From: Nitrospira sp.
GTDB lineage: Bacteria > Nitrospirota > Nitrospiria > Nitrospirales > Nitrospiraceae
NCBI GenBank assembly: GCA_019636835.1
Contig: JAHBWU010000007.1
Coordinates: 1-64,000, forward strand
Direction of reading: 5' to 3'
Length of the DNA: 64,000 nucleotides
The translations under genes were made by a program, and so were the position numbers. How positions within the stretch are numbered: the stretch's first letter is position 1; the number at the start of each line of letters is the position of its first letter. The notes beneath the pieces were generated by a model that was given only the letters and a program-made list of their open reading frames with translations, searched no databases and had not been told where the DNA came from. Shown here one piece after another: positions 52,392-60,977 of this stretch.

Positions 52392-53330
52392 ATGACAGCA
52401 CTGGCTTCGTATGCACACCTCCGATCCCGGCTCCAGCTGGCCTTGGCCGTCAATGCCGTGATCATCGCGGCTGAGTTTGTCGGCGGCTGGCTCCTTAACA
52501 GCATCGGGCTCATGAGCGACGCCGGCCACAATCTCGTCGATCAAGGGGCGCTTTTTCTGGCACTGTATGCCCATCTCCTCACCGCGCGCCCAGCTTCGGA
52601 AAGCCGAACCTTCGGCTACCATCGTGCCGGCATCATCGCGGCTTTTCTCAACAGTTTTATCCTCCTGGTGACCGCGCTCGGCATCGCGCTCGTCGGCGTG
52701 AAGCGACTCCTGCAACCGGTTCCCATCGACGGTGGATGGGTGATGGCGGTCGCGGCCGTCAGTTTCGTGGCCAATCTCGGAATCGCTCTGTTGCTTCAGC
52801 AAGGAGCAAAAGACGATCTGAACATCCGGAGCGCATTCTGGCACATGGTAGGAGACGCGTGGGTCTCGCTCGGCGTGATTGTCAGCGGGGGGGCCATTTT
52901 CCTGACAGGCTGGACCGTCCTGGATCCGCTCGTAAGTTTGCTGGTGGTCGGCGCGATCGTTCGAGGAGCCTGGCCGATCTTCAAAGAATCGATGGAAGTC
53001 TTACTGGAATCGACACCGCCAGGCATCAGCGCCTCCCATGTCGCAGCCACGATGGAAGCCGTTCCCGGCGTCAGGAACGTGCATGATCTGCACATTTGGG
53101 CGGTCGAACCACGCTTGGTCATGCTCACCAGCCACGTCATGATCGAACATCATCGCACCCCGTTGGAGTTGCTGCAGTTGATTCAGAACCGGATCACGAC
53201 GGATTTCGGCATCAAACACATGACCATTCAACTGGAAACCGAGTGTTGCGATCCCGACGACATCCACTGCGATCTTCGGAAACTGACCGGGCACCACCAC
53301 GAAACACACACCTTCGCGCACCATCATTGA
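52392..53330 (+). CDS. cation diffusion facilitator (zinc/cobalt exporter family)
   Basis: About 312 residues with six membrane helices. SDAGHNLVDQGALFLALYAH in helix 2 carries the metal-binding Asp/His pattern. A cytoplasmic ferredoxin-like C-terminal domain ends in a His-rich tail (GHHHETHTFAHHH). It should export divalent metal against protons. ATG 52392 is preferred over a TTG at 52356, although neither has a strong ribosome site. Confidence 0.9.
   Translation: MTALASYAHLRSRLQLALAVNAVIIAAEFVGGWLLNSIGLMSDAGHNLVDQGALFLALYAHLLTARPASESRTFGYHRAGIIAAFLNSFILLVTALGIALVGVKRLLQPVPIDGGWVMAVAAVSFVANLGIALLLQQGAKDDLNIRSAFWHMVGDAWVSLGVIVSGGAIFLTGWTVLDPLVSLLVVGAIVRGAWPIFKESMEVLLESTPPGISASHVAATMEAVPGVRNVHDLHIWAVEPRLVMLTSHVMIEHHRTPLELLQLIQNRITTDFGIKHMTIQLETECCDPDDIHCDLRKLTGHHHETHTFAHHH
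53164..53191 (+). repeat. direct repeat, copy 1 (inside CDF gene)
   Basis: This 28-base stretch beginning TGGAGTTGCTGCAGTTGAT matches 54103-54130 at 26 of 28 positions. The two copies flank the MNT-HEPN pair. Confidence 0.7.
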
Positions 53331-53419: not shown

Positions 53420-53728
53420 ATGATTTCTCAGGAGCTTGTCGCTCGACCACGACAAATTGCACAAGAGGTCGAGAAGCTTGCTCGATACATCCTGGGCACT
53501 GAGGTTGACGTCATTTGGTTTGGTTCGTGGCCCAAAGGTACGGCTCACGCCCACGCCGACATCGACATTGCTGTCTCCGGGTCCACGGCATTTCCCCCTG
53601 AACGACTCGCCGAACTCCGCGCCGCAATCGAGGATCTGGCGACGCTGCATGAAATCGACATCGTTGATCTACACACTGTCGATGAACGATTCAAACAAGA
53701 GATTCTCCGCCATGGACTCCGCTTATGA
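53420..53728 (+). CDS. mntA: MntA-like nucleotidyltransferase antitoxin
   Basis: 102 residues of the minimal-nucleotidyltransferase fold. GSWPKGTAHAHADIDIAV fits GS-x10-D-x-D, the signature of type VII MntA antitoxins. Such enzymes inactivate the HepT RNase by adenylylating it. The next gene overlaps by four bases. The promoter was not identified. Confidence 0.85.
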   Translation: MISQELVARPRQIAQEVEKLARYILGTEVDVIWFGSWPKGTAHAHADIDIAVSGSTAFPPERLAELRAAIEDLATLHEIDIVDLHTVDERFKQEILRHGLRL

Positions 53729-54099
53729 CCACACGACTCGACAGCTTCGCCACGGCCATCACGCGTTTCAGCGAAGCCCTCATCGCTCCCGTGAACGATC
53801 TCACCCGCGACGCCGCCATCCAACGGTTTGAATTTTGCTTTGAGTTGGCCTGGAAGGTGATTCAAGAACGGGCACGGGCGGAAGGACTCGACTGTCAATC
53901 CCCGAAAGGCTGCCTCAAGCTGGCTTACAAAAACAGTTGGATCAACGATGAAACCGGGTGGCTCGCCATGCTTGAAGATCGAAACCGCACCGCCCATACG
54001 TATGACGAAACACTCGCCAAAGATGTGTATCGCCGCCTTCCCGCCCATCTGCCGCTGCTGCAGGCATTGAACACCTACCTGCAAAATACGCGGACATAG
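53725..54099 (+). CDS. hepT: HepT-like HEPN toxin
   Basis: 124 residues of all-helical HEPN fold. RNRTAHTY fits R-x4-H-x-Y, the catalytic and target motif of HepT RNases. RFEFCFELAWKVIQERARAE is the usual core helix of the nucleotidyltransferase-substrate-binding family. It forms an operon with the MntA-like gene through an ATGA overlap. As a HEPN/MNT pair it may act in phage defence or stress. Confidence 0.85.
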   Translation: MTTRLDSFATAITRFSEALIAPVNDLTRDAAIQRFEFCFELAWKVIQERARAEGLDCQSPKGCLKLAYKNSWINDETGWLAMLEDRNRTAHTYDETLAKDVYRRLPAHLPLLQALNTYLQNTRT

Positions 54100-54102
54100 G
54101 GC

Positions 54103-54130
54103 TGGAGTTGCTGCAGTTGATCGAGAACCG
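54103..54130 (+). repeat. direct repeat, copy 2 (after hepT)
   Basis: Second copy of the 28-base repeat of 53164-53191 (26 of 28 identical), beginning four bases after the hepT-like gene. It is outside any gene here. The 54131-54183 gap holds nothing else I recognise. Confidence 0.7.
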
Positions 54131-54183: not shown

Positions 54184-57100
54184 TTAAGAAATGCTCAAAG
54201 CTTCGCTGCAAACAATCTTTGGTGTTGGGTGAGTGAGCGAGGAGTCTTGGCGATCCACACAAGACCGCATGTTGTGTTGGGTGAAGAGATTGGCCAGCGT
54301 CTTTAAAAGGGCCTCGCCGGTTACGCCGTTACGACGTAAAAGATTCAATTCTTTATTGATGGCCTTTGTCACACGCCCACGGAAAGCCTTTTCCAGTACA
54401 TTGATTTGAGCCTTGATGTCTTCATCTGTCGTGACGCCGAATAAGAGGCGCATTTCGCGCAGAATGTATCGCTGCCCGGAAGACAAGCCAAGAGTGAGCG
54501 CTCGCTCAGCCTGCCGATGTTTCACTTCTTCGGCAAACAACTGCTTCACGCGCGTCACCGTTGCATTGTAGCCGGCGGGCAATGCTGATCCGGTTAGTTC
54601 ATGCCCACACTTCAGCGCGCCCAGGATACGCGGAATATCTCGTGATATAACTCCCCCCTGCTCGTCCAACAAAAATAATTGCTGATACCCTTTGATGTCT
54701 GTGTCTTCCGGGTATGAAGCCTCGCAAAAGACATAGGTACCTTTGTGAGAGGAAGGCTTGACCGTCCGGATGCCATCCCGAAGCGTTGCAATCCGTTCAT
54801 ATTCCGATGGATCATCCTTTCGCAACTGGCGCAGGATCTCTTCCGCTTCGTTTAAATCCAGGAATTCCTCTTCTTCCTCGTAGAGACCCAATTGTGCCCC
54901 GCGCTTCTCATAAATCGCGTACATCGCCTCTTCGTTCAGCTGCTCGCTCTTATCCAGGATCGCGGCGTCTTCTCCTATCGTGTCGTGGATTTCCTGAATG
55001 CGATTCCGAAGCTTCAGCTTCAGCCCCAAATTCTGTTCAAGACCTGTCTCCGGCAAAAAGTTATATCCATAAATGACGTCATGATCGCTCCCAATACGAT
55101 CAATCCGCCCAAATCGCTGAATCAAACGAACCGGATTCCAATGCAGGTCGTAATTGATGATCTTATCGCAGTCTTGCAGATTCAGCCCCTCCGCAAACAC
55201 ATCGGTGGCTACAAGGGTCATCAGTTCAGATTTTCCTGATGCCAAGTGGTATTCCGGGTTGGCTTTGGGAGCGAAGCGCCCGGCCATCCGCGCCTTGCTC
55301 TTGTCACCGCTGTAGATCACATCAATGTCATCTCGCTTGCCATCTGGATTTAGATTCTCGTACAGGTAGCGCGCCGAACCGGCATACTGCGTGAAAATCA
55401 ATCGCTTGCCGTCTTTCAGAGGCTTCTCGGACAATTTTCTTTTGAGTGTTTGCAGCTTGGCATCTTGTGTTGGGGTAATCGGCTCTACCAATTGAAGAAT
55501 TTCACTCAGCATCCGAATGTCGTGCGCGAGGTGCTCTTCGAGTTTTCCAAGGTCGAAGTGTGCCGCATCGTACCGATGAGCGACTTCTCGCAAGGCCTCC
55601 ATCAAGTCCATTTCCTCCGGATCATCCGCCTCGTACAGCAGCGTTTGGGCGTCTTCCCCGGCCGGCACAATCCCCTGCTGTAATGCCGCGACAAAGGTGC
55701 GGTGTATATTCAGCAACCGCCGTACTGTTTCCCTGAAGGCATACACGCTCGATTCGAATCGTTTGAACAGCAAGATCCGAATGAGCCCTCGCAAGTTTGA
55801 TCCGGCACGTTGCAGATTCGTATAGGGTTCCTGGCGCTGCTTGTCCTTGATCACGTAGTGCCAAAGCCCATACCTGGCATAGGTGAGTTCACCTTCCGCA
55901 GGCTTAGCCGGTCGTCCTTTTGAAGCTTTGCCTAAATAACCCCGCAACGTCTGGTACAACCCCTGATAGGTCTCCTCGATGCTGTACTCGATCGTTTCCA
56001 GTTCTCTTTTAGGGAAGAACTGATGCCGCCCACCTACGAGCACATAGGCTCGTTTGACTCCGGTTACATATTCGTGAAACCGTGAGCTATCCACCGGCTC
56101 GTGGGTTGTCTCATCCCGACCGTACCAGCGCAGAATGTGATTTCTGGTCCGACGGATGAGAATATGGGCCAGCAGGTCGGGCAATTTTTTTTGCCCTCTT
56201 TCGACCAGACGGAAGTACTCTTTGAGGTTCGGCGGATCGACTGGAAGATCAGTTTTATCGTCTTGATGAAACAGTTTGATCTGGTGATACACATCCCATG
56301 AGCTTTTGTTGCGCGGCGTCGCCGTCAGAAAACAGCATCGTTTGCCCGTCGCCAGGAACTCTTGCACCACTTTATATCGCTGTGTATCCGGAGAACGAAC
56401 ATTGTGGCTCTCATCGATCAGCAGAAAGTCTCGATCGCGATACTTGTCATCTTTGAGTAGAAGATTCGCACTGGCACCGTTTTCGCGCAGATAGCCCATC
56501 GAAAGAATCTGCGCATGAAGGTCATAGACCGCGTTGTAGCGTTCCCACATCTCGACGAGAGGGGCCGGGCAGATGATGAGCGGTCGCGCATGGTCTGTTC
56601 GCTCGAAATGTTTCACAATAGCCGCCCCGATATAGGATTTTCCAAGACCGACGACATCGGCAACGAATGTCCCGCCGTGATCCCGAATATTCTGAACCGC
56701 TTGCCGGACGGCTACTTTCTGAAAGTCGGCTAACTTCTTGGTAATCTCATCATCCCAGAGAATGTCCTTGTCGTCGGTCCCCTCCAACCGATCCTTGACC
56801 AGCGCATAGAGCGTCTTCATATAAATGTCGTATGGACGGACCGTAGCAACAGCCCACGACTGTTGCATCTCTTGCATGAGGACTGCATCAAAGTCTTCAG
56901 CTTCCTTCCAGAGTTCGTCGAACCACCGTCCGAGTTCTGCATGATTGTCATTTCCCTGCACAACCACATTGAGTTCGGTGTTATGAGTGACCCCGGATAA
57001 GGTCAAGTTGGATGACCCGACAATAGCGATCCCTTTCTCATGGCGGGCGATCGGCTGCCCGCGCTCATCAAAGACCGTTCCATAGTCAAAGATATATGCC

Positions 57101-57540
57101 TTCGCGTGCATCCGGCCTTTCGTGTAGACCTTCACTTTAAGCTGTTTCTCCTCGATCATTCGCACCAGCGTCTTAACAAGCGTCTCGCTCTCGTCCGTTT
57201 GATCCATCACTTCCATCGATAGGCGGAGATTCTTAGCGGTCTCACCGACCATCTGCTTTCCATCCGTCCGCCTTGGATATTTCTGGGATTCAGCCGTCTC
57301 AGCTACCATCTCTAGTCGACGGTATCCTTCAGCAAGTTGTTCCAAAGTCTCTCGATTAGTCGTGTTTCCTATGAGGAGGCGCAGTTCCTTTACCTGGGCG
57401 AGCTGCTGGGCAATGCTGGTCAAGCCGGAAAGAAAGAAATAGCCGACGGCGAATCGAGCACTGTCGGTAGAACTGAGGATACGGTTGATGTGATCCACCA
57501 ATCGCTCCTCACGGTTATCGATGATGTCATGCAAGGGCAT
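54184..57540 (-). CDS. PLD-nuclease / SNF2-family helicase fusion
   Basis: 1118 residues. An N-terminal phospholipase-D-type domain has HAK (145-147) and GSSNLT (175-180), the single HKD half-site seen in PLD nucleases. A superfamily 2 helicase follows: VVGLGKS (296-302), DESH (375-378), TATPRN (about 405) and the second lobe with DVFAEGLNLQDC and QRFGRIDRIGS (808-818). The last 250 residues are helical and unassigned. Its ATG overlaps the methyltransferase stop (TAATG), so the two are translated together. It should move along and cut DNA lacking the partner's methylation; that is inference. Confidence 0.87.
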   Translation of the reverse strand: MPLHDIIDNREERLVDHINRILSSTDSARFAVGYFFLSGLTSIAQQLAQVKELRLLIGNTTNRETLEQLAEGYRRLEMVAETAESQKYPRRTDGKQMVGETAKNLRLSMEVMDQTDESETLVKTLVRMIEEKQLKVKVYTKGRMHAKAYIFDYGTVFDERGQPIARHEKGIAIVGSSNLTLSGVTHNTELNVVVQGNDNHAELGRWFDELWKEAEDFDAVLMQEMQQSWAVATVRPYDIYMKTLYALVKDRLEGTDDKDILWDDEITKKLADFQKVAVRQAVQNIRDHGGTFVADVVGLGKSYIGAAIVKHFERTDHARPLIICPAPLVEMWERYNAVYDLHAQILSMGYLRENGASANLLLKDDKYRDRDFLLIDESHNVRSPDTQRYKVVQEFLATGKRCCFLTATPRNKSSWDVYHQIKLFHQDDKTDLPVDPPNLKEYFRLVERGQKKLPDLLAHILIRRTRNHILRWYGRDETTHEPVDSSRFHEYVTGVKRAYVLVGGRHQFFPKRELETIEYSIEETYQGLYQTLRGYLGKASKGRPAKPAEGELTYARYGLWHYVIKDKQRQEPYTNLQRAGSNLRGLIRILLFKRFESSVYAFRETVRRLLNIHRTFVAALQQGIVPAGEDAQTLLYEADDPEEMDLMEALREVAHRYDAAHFDLGKLEEHLAHDIRMLSEILQLVEPITPTQDAKLQTLKRKLSEKPLKDGKRLIFTQYAGSARYLYENLNPDGKRDDIDVIYSGDKSKARMAGRFAPKANPEYHLASGKSELMTLVATDVFAEGLNLQDCDKIINYDLHWNPVRLIQRFGRIDRIGSDHDVIYGYNFLPETGLEQNLGLKLKLRNRIQEIHDTIGEDAAILDKSEQLNEEAMYAIYEKRGAQLGLYEEEEEFLDLNEAEEILRQLRKDDPSEYERIATLRDGIRTVKPSSHKGTYVFCEASYPEDTDIKGYQQLFLLDEQGGVISRDIPRILGALKCGHELTGSALPAGYNATVTRVKQLFAEEVKHRQAERALTLGLSSGQRYILREMRLLFGVTTDEDIKAQINVLEKAFRGRVTKAINKELNLLRRNGVTGEALLKTLANLFTQHNMRSCVDRQDSSLTHPTPKIVCSEALSIS

Positions 57541-60500
57541 TAGTCAGACTCCTCCACATCGGTATTGCCAGCGCTGCCTCGTCGCACTCGTGTTTGGTCT
57601 CGGATCAACTGACGTTCGGCCTCCGTAAGCTTATAAAGATCAAAGATCAAATCATCAACTTTAGCTTCTAATTCTCCAACTTTGGTTGTGCCGGAATCCT
57701 TGAGGATCGTTTTCACTGGCTTGACAATGGAAGTCCTCTGGTCAGCAGTTGCTGTCGCAATCGGTATTTCTCCGATGTACTGAGAAAACATTCGGAGGTA
57801 TCCTCCTCTAATTTGTGAACTGATGTGGCGGTAGAAAAAGTCAACCAACGATGAGTTAAGTGCAGCCAAGAGAACTGGATCCTCAGAAGGAATGAAATAG
57901 GTCGTATTCCCCGAGTAAGAGCTAGATTCATCAAACGAAAATCGCATCTCGGCGCAAATATCAGGGTACAAAATCTTTTGTCCATCGAATTCGGCATAGT
58001 AGGCGCAGGATCGCAGCTCCCACCAAAATTCTCCCTGATCATCCCGTTCCCGCAGTTTTTTCTCATAAGTTGACAAATGTTGCGCTATGGCCACGTAGGA
58101 CTTCTCAAATACCTTGAACGCCTTCTCGTCACTTTTAATACCGCTCCACGGCCATTCCTTATTGACACTACTAGGGATTGCAATGACGTAGAGTTTTGCC
58201 CACTCAGCTCGCCATTTCTTAATGTCCCGTCCCCGCAGCCAGGGTTTGATCAGTTCGGCTGACTTCGGATCTTCCTTAATGAGCCGGCGACGAGTAGCTT
58301 CATCGATGACAAAGGCTTCGTTAAAGCCCGTCAAAATACCGCGGTAGAACCGTCCCTTCACATAGTCCCCAAGCGGCACACCCTTGTCTCGCAGCTTTCT
58401 CATCAATCGCAACACTTCCGGTCGTTCCAATGTCCATCCCGCATCAGATAAATCTTGCACCTGCATGGCGAAGCTTTCTGATTTGATGGTCTCATCAAGA
58501 TGCACTAACTTTGATTCATCCTTCATCACCGCCACTGTGGCCTCTTTGTGGTTAGCAGGAACTTCTTTCTTGATGAGGAGGATTGCGGGATAGGTGGTGG
58601 CTTCAAAGATAGGCAGATCACCAAAATCAATAATGAGTTCCGGCGTTGCGTTGGATGTCAGCAATTTTCTCGTATTTGCCCCGTACGCCGCCCGCATGAA
58701 TTTATTCGGCGCGATATAGCACAGCACTCCTCCTTCCCGTAGCAGGTCTAATCCTCGCTTATAGAAGTAAGTATAAAGGTCCGCCGTTCCACAGAAGAAC
58801 GAGTCGAATTCATCCTCAAGTTGAGGCTTCAGCTTTCGAATCAGCTCCTGCCGCACATAGGGCGGGTTGGCAATGACGATATCGAATCCACTGGGAGTAG
58901 CAGCAAAGACCTCCGCGAATAACAATCGAAGCGGGGTGACCGGCAATGTGCCGTCTTTCAAAAATGCGTCGCGTTCGGCTTCGATTCGGTTCAAATGGTT
59001 TTGGGCTTCGGTAAGCTTTGCCTGCCAGTCTCTCGGAAGATCCTCAGGCTTTCGATGCATCTGCAGCGCCTTGTCCAATACAAGGTCAGATTCTCGCTTC
59101 CAATGTGCCTCATGAACCCGCCAGTGTTCTTGCAGGATGGCGCCGATGTCCAATTGAATCGCTTCGCGCAATCGGCGTTTTTCTGCATCTGCTGTTGTAT
59201 TAAAATAGCCGGCTAAATGGCGAACCATCGACACGGTTCGCTTTGCGCGTTCGTCGACGTACAACTTTCCTTGTGGTTTGACCGTCCCGAAAAGATTGTG
59301 TTCCTTTTCAAAGCCGGGGCCAGTTTGCGGGGGGAGGATCGGCTCGCCATCCAAATACTCCCGCAATGTGTCACCTTGGACGATGCGGTAGTCCAGATTA
59401 GGCAGAGGCGAAGCTTCCGGTTCGTCCACGACCAACGACAGCCAGAGACGCAGTCGAGCAATTTCACAGGCTTCATGGCTGATATCGACGCCGAAGATAT
59501 TGTTTCCCACGATCTCACGCTTCCACTGTCCGATGCGGGCCGCTTGCATCGTTTCAGACTCTCCAAGCATGCGGCCGCAGATGGTCCTCAGATGGATCAG
59601 CTCGTGAAGCGCACCCAACAAGAACGCTCCACTGCCGACTGCAGGGTCCAGAATGCGAATACTTCGAAGTGAAGTCAGAATATGACGGGCAACGTCTGCA
59701 TTGACCTTTGGAAGGCGGCCATCAAGAGGAGCCTCGAAGAAATCATCAAAGCTCTCTTTCGTCAATCCAGTTGTCCCCGTCAAGTATTGAAAGATACTTT
59801 CACGGCACATAAAGGACACGATGGCCCGGGGCGTGTAATACGTGCCGGAGGCATGACGATCTTCAGCGGCCAACAGGTTTTCAAACACTCGCCCCAGCAT
59901 CTCCGGATCAATGTCCACGTCCTGATCCAAAGGAGTACTTTCAGCAACCGTGAAGTTATACGAGTTCAGAAATGTGAAGAGATCACTGAACTGAGCATTC
60001 GACACCACCGGATGCTTTAAGTCATCCGCTTCAAAAAACTCCGTCTGGGGTTCAAACAGCCCACCGTTCAAATATGGAATGACGCAGGTCTCGTTCAGGA
60101 TTGTCTTGTGCTTACCTGGACGATTCAGCCCTTCAAAAAATAACGGCTCCACAATATCCCAGTAATAATTCCTTCTTTCGTGACCCTGATAAAGCATAAA
60201 GCGAGTGAAGAGAAATTCCGGCTCGCTGTTCAACCAACGCTTCTTCTGAATGAAATACAAGAACAGCACACGGCCTAAGAGAAGCTGGGTAAACCGACGA
60301 ACATTCTGTTCGCCCCTGTCTCCCATGAAATGGGCTTTGCCTTTGTTGATTTTGCCGATGGCATCGACAAAATCCCAAAACCGATCGCGATATCCACGGT
60401 AGAATCCTTGGCCCACCTCTTCGACATCGAAAGCTTGATCATGGCGCTGCTGAATATCATTCACTCCGAGCGGATGTCGTAGCGCTTGAATCCAATCCGC

Positions 60501-60977
60501 ATCATCCGCCACATCCAACATCGCGATTCGTTCGCAGGCTGTGCGAAGCTGTTCTTCGGGGCCGACCGTGATGCGCCGAAACAGTCGACGCTTGTCGCGC
60601 TGTTCATCATCTTTGACATTCACAAAATGCCAGTGCTTCTGTGTCGAGTCGGAGAACACAAATAACGCATAGGGGTGATCCTGCAACAACCGTGAAACCA
60701 CCGGTCGTTCTACGCCAAGCTGTAGTTTGTCCGAATCGAGTTGCGCATAGATGACGCGAAAATCTTTGTCGGGTCCGGCTGCAGCGAGGAGTACCGGATC
60801 TGTCGCTAACGCCTTGGCTGCGGTATCAGGCCAGGTTCGGCGAGAAATGAGACTATTGATGCGGCGGTAGTTGAGTTGTGTCCAGAACAACTCTTTGAGT
60901 GGCGAGAGATCACGATTCCCTTGTCCAAGCGCCTTTAGGGCCTTGAATATATCCGCCTGGCGTTCTGAGAGTCCCAT
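57540..60977 (-). CDS. Eco57I-type N6-adenine DNA methyltransferase
   Basis: 1145 residues. Motif I DPAVGSGAFLLG is near 444, and catalytic motif IV NPPY is near 704. A C-terminal target-recognition part has WLRGRDIKKWRAEWAKLYVI. An all-helical N-terminus of about 350 residues precedes the methyltransferase. No PD-(D/E)XK nuclease motif stands out. It resembles the methylase of type IIG, type ISP, BREX PglX and DISARM DrmMI proteins. The partner genes of BREX and DISARM are absent nearby; only the PLD-helicase follows. Confidence 0.88.
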   Translation of the reverse strand: MGLSERQADIFKALKALGQGNRDLSPLKELFWTQLNYRRINSLISRRTWPDTAAKALATDPVLLAAAGPDKDFRVIYAQLDSDKLQLGVERPVVSRLLQDHPYALFVFSDSTQKHWHFVNVKDDEQRDKRRLFRRITVGPEEQLRTACERIAMLDVADDADWIQALRHPLGVNDIQQRHDQAFDVEEVGQGFYRGYRDRFWDFVDAIGKINKGKAHFMGDRGEQNVRRFTQLLLGRVLFLYFIQKKRWLNSEPEFLFTRFMLYQGHERRNYYWDIVEPLFFEGLNRPGKHKTILNETCVIPYLNGGLFEPQTEFFEADDLKHPVVSNAQFSDLFTFLNSYNFTVAESTPLDQDVDIDPEMLGRVFENLLAAEDRHASGTYYTPRAIVSFMCRESIFQYLTGTTGLTKESFDDFFEAPLDGRLPKVNADVARHILTSLRSIRILDPAVGSGAFLLGALHELIHLRTICGRMLGESETMQAARIGQWKREIVGNNIFGVDISHEACEIARLRLWLSLVVDEPEASPLPNLDYRIVQGDTLREYLDGEPILPPQTGPGFEKEHNLFGTVKPQGKLYVDERAKRTVSMVRHLAGYFNTTADAEKRRLREAIQLDIGAILQEHWRVHEAHWKRESDLVLDKALQMHRKPEDLPRDWQAKLTEAQNHLNRIEAERDAFLKDGTLPVTPLRLLFAEVFAATPSGFDIVIANPPYVRQELIRKLKPQLEDEFDSFFCGTADLYTYFYKRGLDLLREGGVLCYIAPNKFMRAAYGANTRKLLTSNATPELIIDFGDLPIFEATTYPAILLIKKEVPANHKEATVAVMKDESKLVHLDETIKSESFAMQVQDLSDAGWTLERPEVLRLMRKLRDKGVPLGDYVKGRFYRGILTGFNEAFVIDEATRRRLIKEDPKSAELIKPWLRGRDIKKWRAEWAKLYVIAIPSSVNKEWPWSGIKSDEKAFKVFEKSYVAIAQHLSTYEKKLRERDDQGEFWWELRSCAYYAEFDGQKILYPDICAEMRFSFDESSSYSGNTTYFIPSEDPVLLAALNSSLVDFFYRHISSQIRGGYLRMFSQYIGEIPIATATADQRTSIVKPVKTILKDSGTTKVGELEAKVDDLIFDLYKLTEAERQLIRDQTRVRRGSAGNTDVEESD

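Follow-up and report, generated by a model that had tools for sequence, protein, structure and literature searches.

The methylase and helicase genes and their probable insertion site

The window (the whole 64,000-nucleotide stretch of Nitrospira sp. DNA that was analysed) carries two adjoining genes on its minus strand. The upstream gene (57540..60977) encodes a predicted N6-adenine DNA methyltransferase of 1145 aa, the putative modification/specificity subunit, and the downstream gene (54184..57540) encodes the predicted restriction subunit, a protein of 1118 aa with an HKD/PLD nuclease fused to a Swi2/Snf2 motor; the two are referred to below as methylase and helicase. The genes share 1 nt in a TAATG stop/start overlap (57538..57542, minus strand), and the junction reads CTGACTAATGCCC. 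Two genes with these domains and with translational coupling had been proposed in a preliminary description of this DNA, and this was borne out: the ORFs lie at exactly these positions, the domains are found by Pfam, and the catalytic motifs are intact.

In the methylase, Pfam places an Eco57I domain at residues 492-791 (E 2e-37) and a TaqI_C specificity domain (PF12950) at residues 912-1073 (E 3.5e-15); the latter represents the target recognition domain (57759..58244, minus strand). The SAM-binding motif I, DPAVGSG (residues 444-450; 59628..59648, minus strand), and the catalytic motif IV, NPPY (residues 704-707; 58857..58868, minus strand), are kept as DPxxGSG and NPP (704-706) in an alignment of 51 relatives, with D444, P445, G448, S449, N704, P705 and P706 invariant and G450 present in at least 90%. 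The AlphaFold2 model of the methylase (pLDDT 85.5) matches the structures of CamA (Z 29.8), MmeI (Z 25.2) and BrxX/PglX (Z 24.5). Its N-terminal domain, residues 1-183 (60429..60977, minus strand), takes the place of the nuclease in Type IIG enzymes such as MmeI, in which this position carries the nuclease; the structural alignments with MmeI, BrxX, LlaGI and BpuSI begin at model residues 181-194. Within residues 1-183, no D, E or K is kept in at least 60% of the 51 sequences and no conserved catalytic acid/lysine set is present, the question of a dead nuclease being judged here from sequence conservation and strand/helix order alone.

The helicase comprises PLDc_2 (residues 19-211, E 7e-14), SNF2-rel (370-468) and Helicase_C (695-817) domains by Pfam; the HKD nuclease domain thus covers 56908..57486 and the Swi2/Snf2 motor (residues ~251-817) covers 55090..56790, both on the minus strand. 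The nuclease motifs are HAKAYIFD (H145, K147, D152), GSSN (175-178) and E189. In a 51-sequence alignment, H145 and K147 are kept in 50 sequences, the remaining row having X there, and S176, N178, E189, the Walker-A K301, D376/E377/H379, T408-P409 and R812/R815 are invariant; D152 is not conserved across the family. The AlphaFold2 model (pLDDT 81.9; the alignments used for both structure models were without rows from plasmid records) places the motor close to Ino80 (Z 18.6, rmsd 3.7, 391 aligned residues), and Isw1-type Snf2 cores also match. The only structural match that starts in the nuclease domain is SauUSI (7clg, range 1-863, Z 18.4; rmsd 27.5 over the whole chain). Methylase residues 1-183 and the helicase past residue ~890 are barely covered by the structural lists, and no fold was found there for either part. 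Models for DrmD, DpdE and RapA scored far under their cut-offs with the helicase, and the NCBIfam model NF042964 ('phospholipase D-like anti-phage protein') reached 152 bits against a cut-off of 1100, so that the helicase is not a member.

In this genus, the site of the module is a hot spot for islands, and some genomes have it empty. Among 77 genomes of the genus, a DNA match to the full pair was found in the window genome only. The flanking genes adjoin each other in two genomes (G089 and G094), which represent empty sites; two others (G131 and G107) retain only C-terminal helicase stubs (162 aa at 88% and 92 aa at 83%), and three (G128, G139 and G140) have different genes in this interval. 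Past an MNT/HEPN gene pair, G128, G153, G089 and G077 (loci L161, L163, L167 and L173) carry a repeat of the last 165 bp of the neighbouring CDF transporter gene (window 53166-53330). In the window, all that is left of this repeat is a 28-bp stub (54103..54130, plus strand) just before the module, at the left border of the inserted island; insertion seems to have recurred at the 3' end of the CDF gene. The MNT/HEPN-type pair of the window itself (53420-54099, plus strand; MntA-like nucleotidyltransferase and HI0074/HepT-like protein, a toxin-antitoxin-type pair) adjoins the module. Related genomes have, at this place or next to it, closely related Snf2-type proteins of 1183 and 1350 aa (L161 4380-7931; L049 7488-11540) as other cargo of the hot spot. 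In G153, a further genome of the genus, the right flank of the hot spot is present in a copy with a DUF499 gene nearby (L191, contig C18 1-9000).

Conservation of the pairing

A total of 105 loci was gathered; 80 stem from a scan that covered 84,980 species genomes, the rest from five plasmids and from class relatives. These loci were picked by their similarity to the window helicase, and the following counts therefore describe the family of this helicase, not all HKD-helicases. With profiles of both proteins, a methylase on the same strand was found in 87 of 103 helicase-bearing loci, and a methylase on the opposite strand only in none. When only those homologues were counted whose helicase gene has 4 kb or more on each side (fully flanked loci; n = 59), 54 had a same-strand Eco57I-type methylase and again no locus had one on the opposite strand only, which argues against chance. 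The median gap between the two genes of these 54 loci is 21 bp, and their order varies (38 downstream, 16 upstream). The pair spans Chloroflexota, Bacteroidota, Cyanobacteriota, Planctomycetota, Pseudomonadota and archaea, among others; this two-gene layout, kept across phyla, backs the suggestion of the preliminary description that the pair is a stand-alone module.

In the 105 loci, the pair has no further large partner family that recurs. Small extra genes were found near it, comprising an OLD-like AAA protein as the commonest (11 loci), DprA-like (6), Schlafen-type (6), DUF4276-like (5) and Fic (4) proteins; none of them is general. Plasmid records that match into the N-terminal half of the methylase (e.g. 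Nostoc, Calothrix, Deinococcus, Natrinema) also have a helicase match within a few kilobases; many plasmid matches are confined to methylase residues ~684-1085, and their records have no helicase among the matches listed.

The helicase family is not confined to this pairing, since five of the 59 fully flanked homologues are without an Eco57I-type methylase, two of them (L060 and L061) beside Type III genes. At these two loci (L060 8967-17948; L061 3024-12012), an HKD-Snf2 homologue with a degenerate HKD motif lies beside a methylase and a Type III res gene, supplemented in L060 by DUF4391; the arrangement is that of a Type III-like system with an extra motor.

Source of specificity and proposed mechanism

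The distance matrices of helicase and methylase are correlated (Mantel r 0.74; best of 999 permutations 0.15), and the correlation is unevenly distributed along the methylase. The helicase distance correlates best with methylase residues 1-100 (r 0.88) and 101-200 (r 0.81), followed by the catalytic core (330-540, r 0.73), the motif-IV part (r 0.37) and the recognition domain (r 0.28); these values are without tree correction, the numbers of sequence pairs differ by segment, and fewer pairs enter for the recognition domain because distant members align poorly there. Recognition domains evolve fast in any case, and the low value for this domain is, by itself, no proof of exchange.

In individual locus pairs, helicases that are 70-94% identical are found with methylases whose recognition halves differ strongly. 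The helicases of L056 and L058 are 94% identical, and so is their C-terminal part, with 54% identity in the methylase core and 26% in the methylase motif-IV segment. The helicases of the window and L066 are 70% identical along their length, compared with 36% overall for the methylases, which retain 46-66% in residues 1-150 and 46% in residues 151-200. In neither of these pairs is there a helicase block that falls to the identity levels of the recognition domain. The window and L072 have 44% identity between the helicases, 38-80% in methylase residues 701-1145 and 13% in the first 100 residues.

A further arrangement is found on plasmid pJM1F of Lactococcus cremoris (L198 7794-10230), where the helicase-methylase pair is followed by an inverted ORF that comprises only a recognition domain (47% identical to methylase residues 799-1018). 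Also present are an inverted repeat of 321 nt with 71% complementarity and a gene for a serine invertase of the Mpi family; the arrangement is probably a specificity switch by DNA inversion. The pJM1F pair matches both family profiles (538 and 693 bits). No opposite-strand, recognition-only ORF was found in the other 105 loci; the sole opposite-strand match (L038) lies outside the recognition domain.

Taken together, the segment co-variation, the close helicases with distant methylases, and the pJM1F cassette suggest that the specificity of the methylase can be exchanged while the nuclease stays constant, and that the nuclease-motor probably has no recognition of its own and is directed by the specificity of the methylase, in the manner of Type I enzymes; methylase residues 1-183 are the likely docking surface. 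The preliminary description had assigned the specificity region to the methylase. It does lie there, but it probably serves the whole pair.

We consider it probable that the pair is a two-subunit, ATP-dependent restriction-modification system in which the specificity of cutting comes from the methylase. That it is a restriction system is suggested by the intact active sites of both subunits, the conserved pairing and the SauUSI-like order of nuclease and motor. The methylase would mark an asymmetric host motif with m6A through its own recognition domain, and the nuclease-motor would dock on the N-terminal domain of the methylase, which has no conserved nuclease motif. At an unmodified site, the complex would hydrolyse ATP and move along the DNA, and the HKD domains of two such complexes would pair, as is the case for BfiI and SauUSI, and break foreign DNA; the dimeric HKD and the shredding are borrowed from SauUSI (PMC7913695). 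As with Type I and Type ISP systems, the nuclease subunit would not itself set the cutting specificity, which the methylase would supply. No motif is assigned to the family: a methylase encoded on pSYSX beside a homologous Synechocystis helicase was considered as a characterised m6A enzyme and set aside, since slr6095 belongs to a Type I system with a bipartite motif, and no mention of slr6050 was found in the literature searched.

Two separate genes would also be expected of a Type II-like system, in which the nuclease-motor works independently of the methylase and both find the same site on their own; the C-terminal ~230 residues of the helicase, for which no fold is assigned, could bind DNA in such a system. 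However, this part is as conserved as the rest of the helicase between pairs with different methylases (L056/L058), and an invertible recognition domain, as in pJM1F, would leave fixed nuclease sites unprotected. We regard independent recognition as unlikely.

The pair could, slightly less probably still, be an incomplete DISARM- or BREX-type system that needs partners elsewhere in the genome. DrmD and DrmMI are distant relatives of the helicase and the methylase, and the same genome does contain a DISARM cluster on contig C89 (L147 3683-13426), which encodes DrmA (E 0) and DrmB (E 2e-157) together with a cytosine methylase and a DrmE-like protein; the sole MZB/DUF1998 match of the genome lies on this contig. 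This cluster has its own methylase, however; no match for DUF499 or PglZ was obtained in the genome (Pfam), absences that are not absolute because the assembly is 88% complete; and the commonest of the extra genes in the 105 loci reaches only 11. At the locus itself, eight proteins were scanned (the pair and its six nearest neighbours) and no BREX, DISARM or DUF499 partner was found, among them PglZ, BrxC, DrmA and DrmB, in agreement with the preliminary description of a split restriction system without such partners. Elsewhere in the genome, contig C57 (L046 3734-10410) has a second helicase-methylase pair, which may be inactive because its methylase is split into ORFs of 807 and 316 aa, and on contig C77 (L148 6860-17774) the gene for a DrmD-like Snf2 protein is followed downstream by mod and res genes of Type III.

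About as improbable is a system that does not cut, in which methylation is combined with an HKD-Snf2 sensor, and this sensor stops phage DNA or causes cell death, a mode of action under debate for BREX and Pbe. PbeABCD, which has an HKD-helicase, has been proposed to work without cleavage of viral DNA (discussed in PMC10853773), but the authors of that discussion themselves favour cleavage, and the catalytic HKD residues of the present family are kept in every row that is readable at these positions.

Finally, the methylase as a single-chain Type IIG enzyme with the HKD-Snf2 protein as an accessory is the least likely of these alternatives: the window methylase matches the PADLOC model REase_MTase_IIG (E 1e-118) and all 13 methylases tested have 'REase_MTase_IIG' models as their best matches, but the N-terminal domain has no conserved nuclease motif and the pairing with a catalytically intact HKD nuclease is near-constant.

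Comparison with known systems

The pair is known as a prediction. In 2018, orf33/orf34 of the Lactococcus lactis plasmid pLd8 were predicted as a restriction-modification system (PMC6098607). Like the window pair, they comprise a protein with PLD, SNF2 and Helicase_C domains and a methylase that has a recognition domain but lacks a nuclease domain, and the authors already placed the nuclease in orf33. The pLd8 system differs in its phylum and in that a third gene, orf35, was counted, and the report is without a mechanism, a survey, or evidence for shared specificity. The split-restriction interpretation of the preliminary description stands in its domains, coupling and missing partners, with the specificity region probably serving both subunits, and the 2018 prediction preceded it. 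No named system with the same two-gene layout was found in the libraries and papers searched, which exclude REBASE and most subscription journals. The PADLOC profile C3a139 'HKD+Snf2' fits the window helicase (E 4.5e-81 over residues 5-865) and the helicase of all 15 members tested; no publication was found for this label or for Gao_RL, and no biochemical, methylome or phage data were found for any family member in the literature searched.

The family, with its intact, fused HKD-motor and an adjoining same-strand Eco57I-type methylase with a recognition domain, is apparently a widespread and unnamed two-subunit, ATP-dependent restriction family, its cleavage, methylation and complex formation being predicted from sequence. 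More tentatively, it might constitute a phylum-spanning class in which the methylase provides specificity as well as docking, the domain that stands where a nuclease usually lies has turned into a docking platform, a generic HKD-Snf2 protein plugs into methylases of many specificities, and some 'Type IIG' enzymes are half-enzymes; we consider this joint proposal quite possible, though not yet probable. If true, a two-chain design with an HKD-type nuclease would close the gap that separates the three chains of Type I from the single chain of Type ISP, and its nuclease would be a plug-in part for which exchangeable methylases supply the specificity. Some 'Type IIG' annotations would then miss the true nuclease, which would affect counts of defence systems, and a small two-gene system with an exchangeable recognition domain would be available for studies of mechanism.

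Among the established classes, the separate HsdS, HsdM and HsdR subunits of Type I systems are not found here, as recognition domain and methylase form one chain. Type ISP enzymes (LlaGI, LlaBIII) likewise combine motor, nuclease, methylase and specificity in one system, and the methylase matches their structures (5ffj, Z 22.1; 4xqk, Z 21.2), but LlaGI and LlaBIII are one polypeptide, whereas the window has two ORFs split by a stop codon, with a nuclease that is of the HKD type and lies on the motor chain. The Type IV enzyme SauUSI (PLD-helicase-SRA), a proven ATP-dependent DNA-shredding enzyme (PMC7913695), shares the order of PLD nuclease and SF2 motor on a single chain; it differs as a single-polypeptide enzyme whose own SRA domain reads methylated DNA. 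CglI and NgoAVII are also ATP-dependent restriction systems of several genes with a PLD nuclease, but in these the PLD domain shares a chain with a B3 recognition domain, with the ATPase as a protein of its own (PMC7913695), whereas PLD and motor form one chain in the window.

Class 1 DISARM (DrmD, DrmMI and DrmABC) resembles the pair in its SNF2 helicase, adenine methylase and PLD protein, but its PLD protein is a separate gene and DrmA and DrmB, both missing at the window locus, are part of the system. ARMADA also pairs a Swi2/Snf2 helicase with a PglX-like methylase; it differs in having a YprA-family helicase as well, with ArmD in addition in Type II, and all four genes were essential there (PMC12458937).

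Of the published architectures, the Type-2 DUF499 BREX-related (BR) system comes closest: an N-terminal HKD nuclease is likewise fused to a Swi2/Snf2 motor and combined with an N6-methylase, but the system needs a DUF499 ATPase and DUF3780 (PMC12839542). DUF499, the ATPase expected of BR Type 2 / Hma, is present in 23 of 197 relatives of the class and was not found in the genome of the window. A class relative (L189) has the BR layout, with DUF499 and a DUF1156-type methylase, and its helicase reaches 128 + 52 bits with the family profile, compared with more than 500 for paired members. In the helicase tree, BR and DrmD helicases form a separate split (support 0.998) and the window helicase lies outside the BR clade; as judged from the profile scores and this tree, the window family is a lineage distinct from the sampled DUF499 BREX-related systems.
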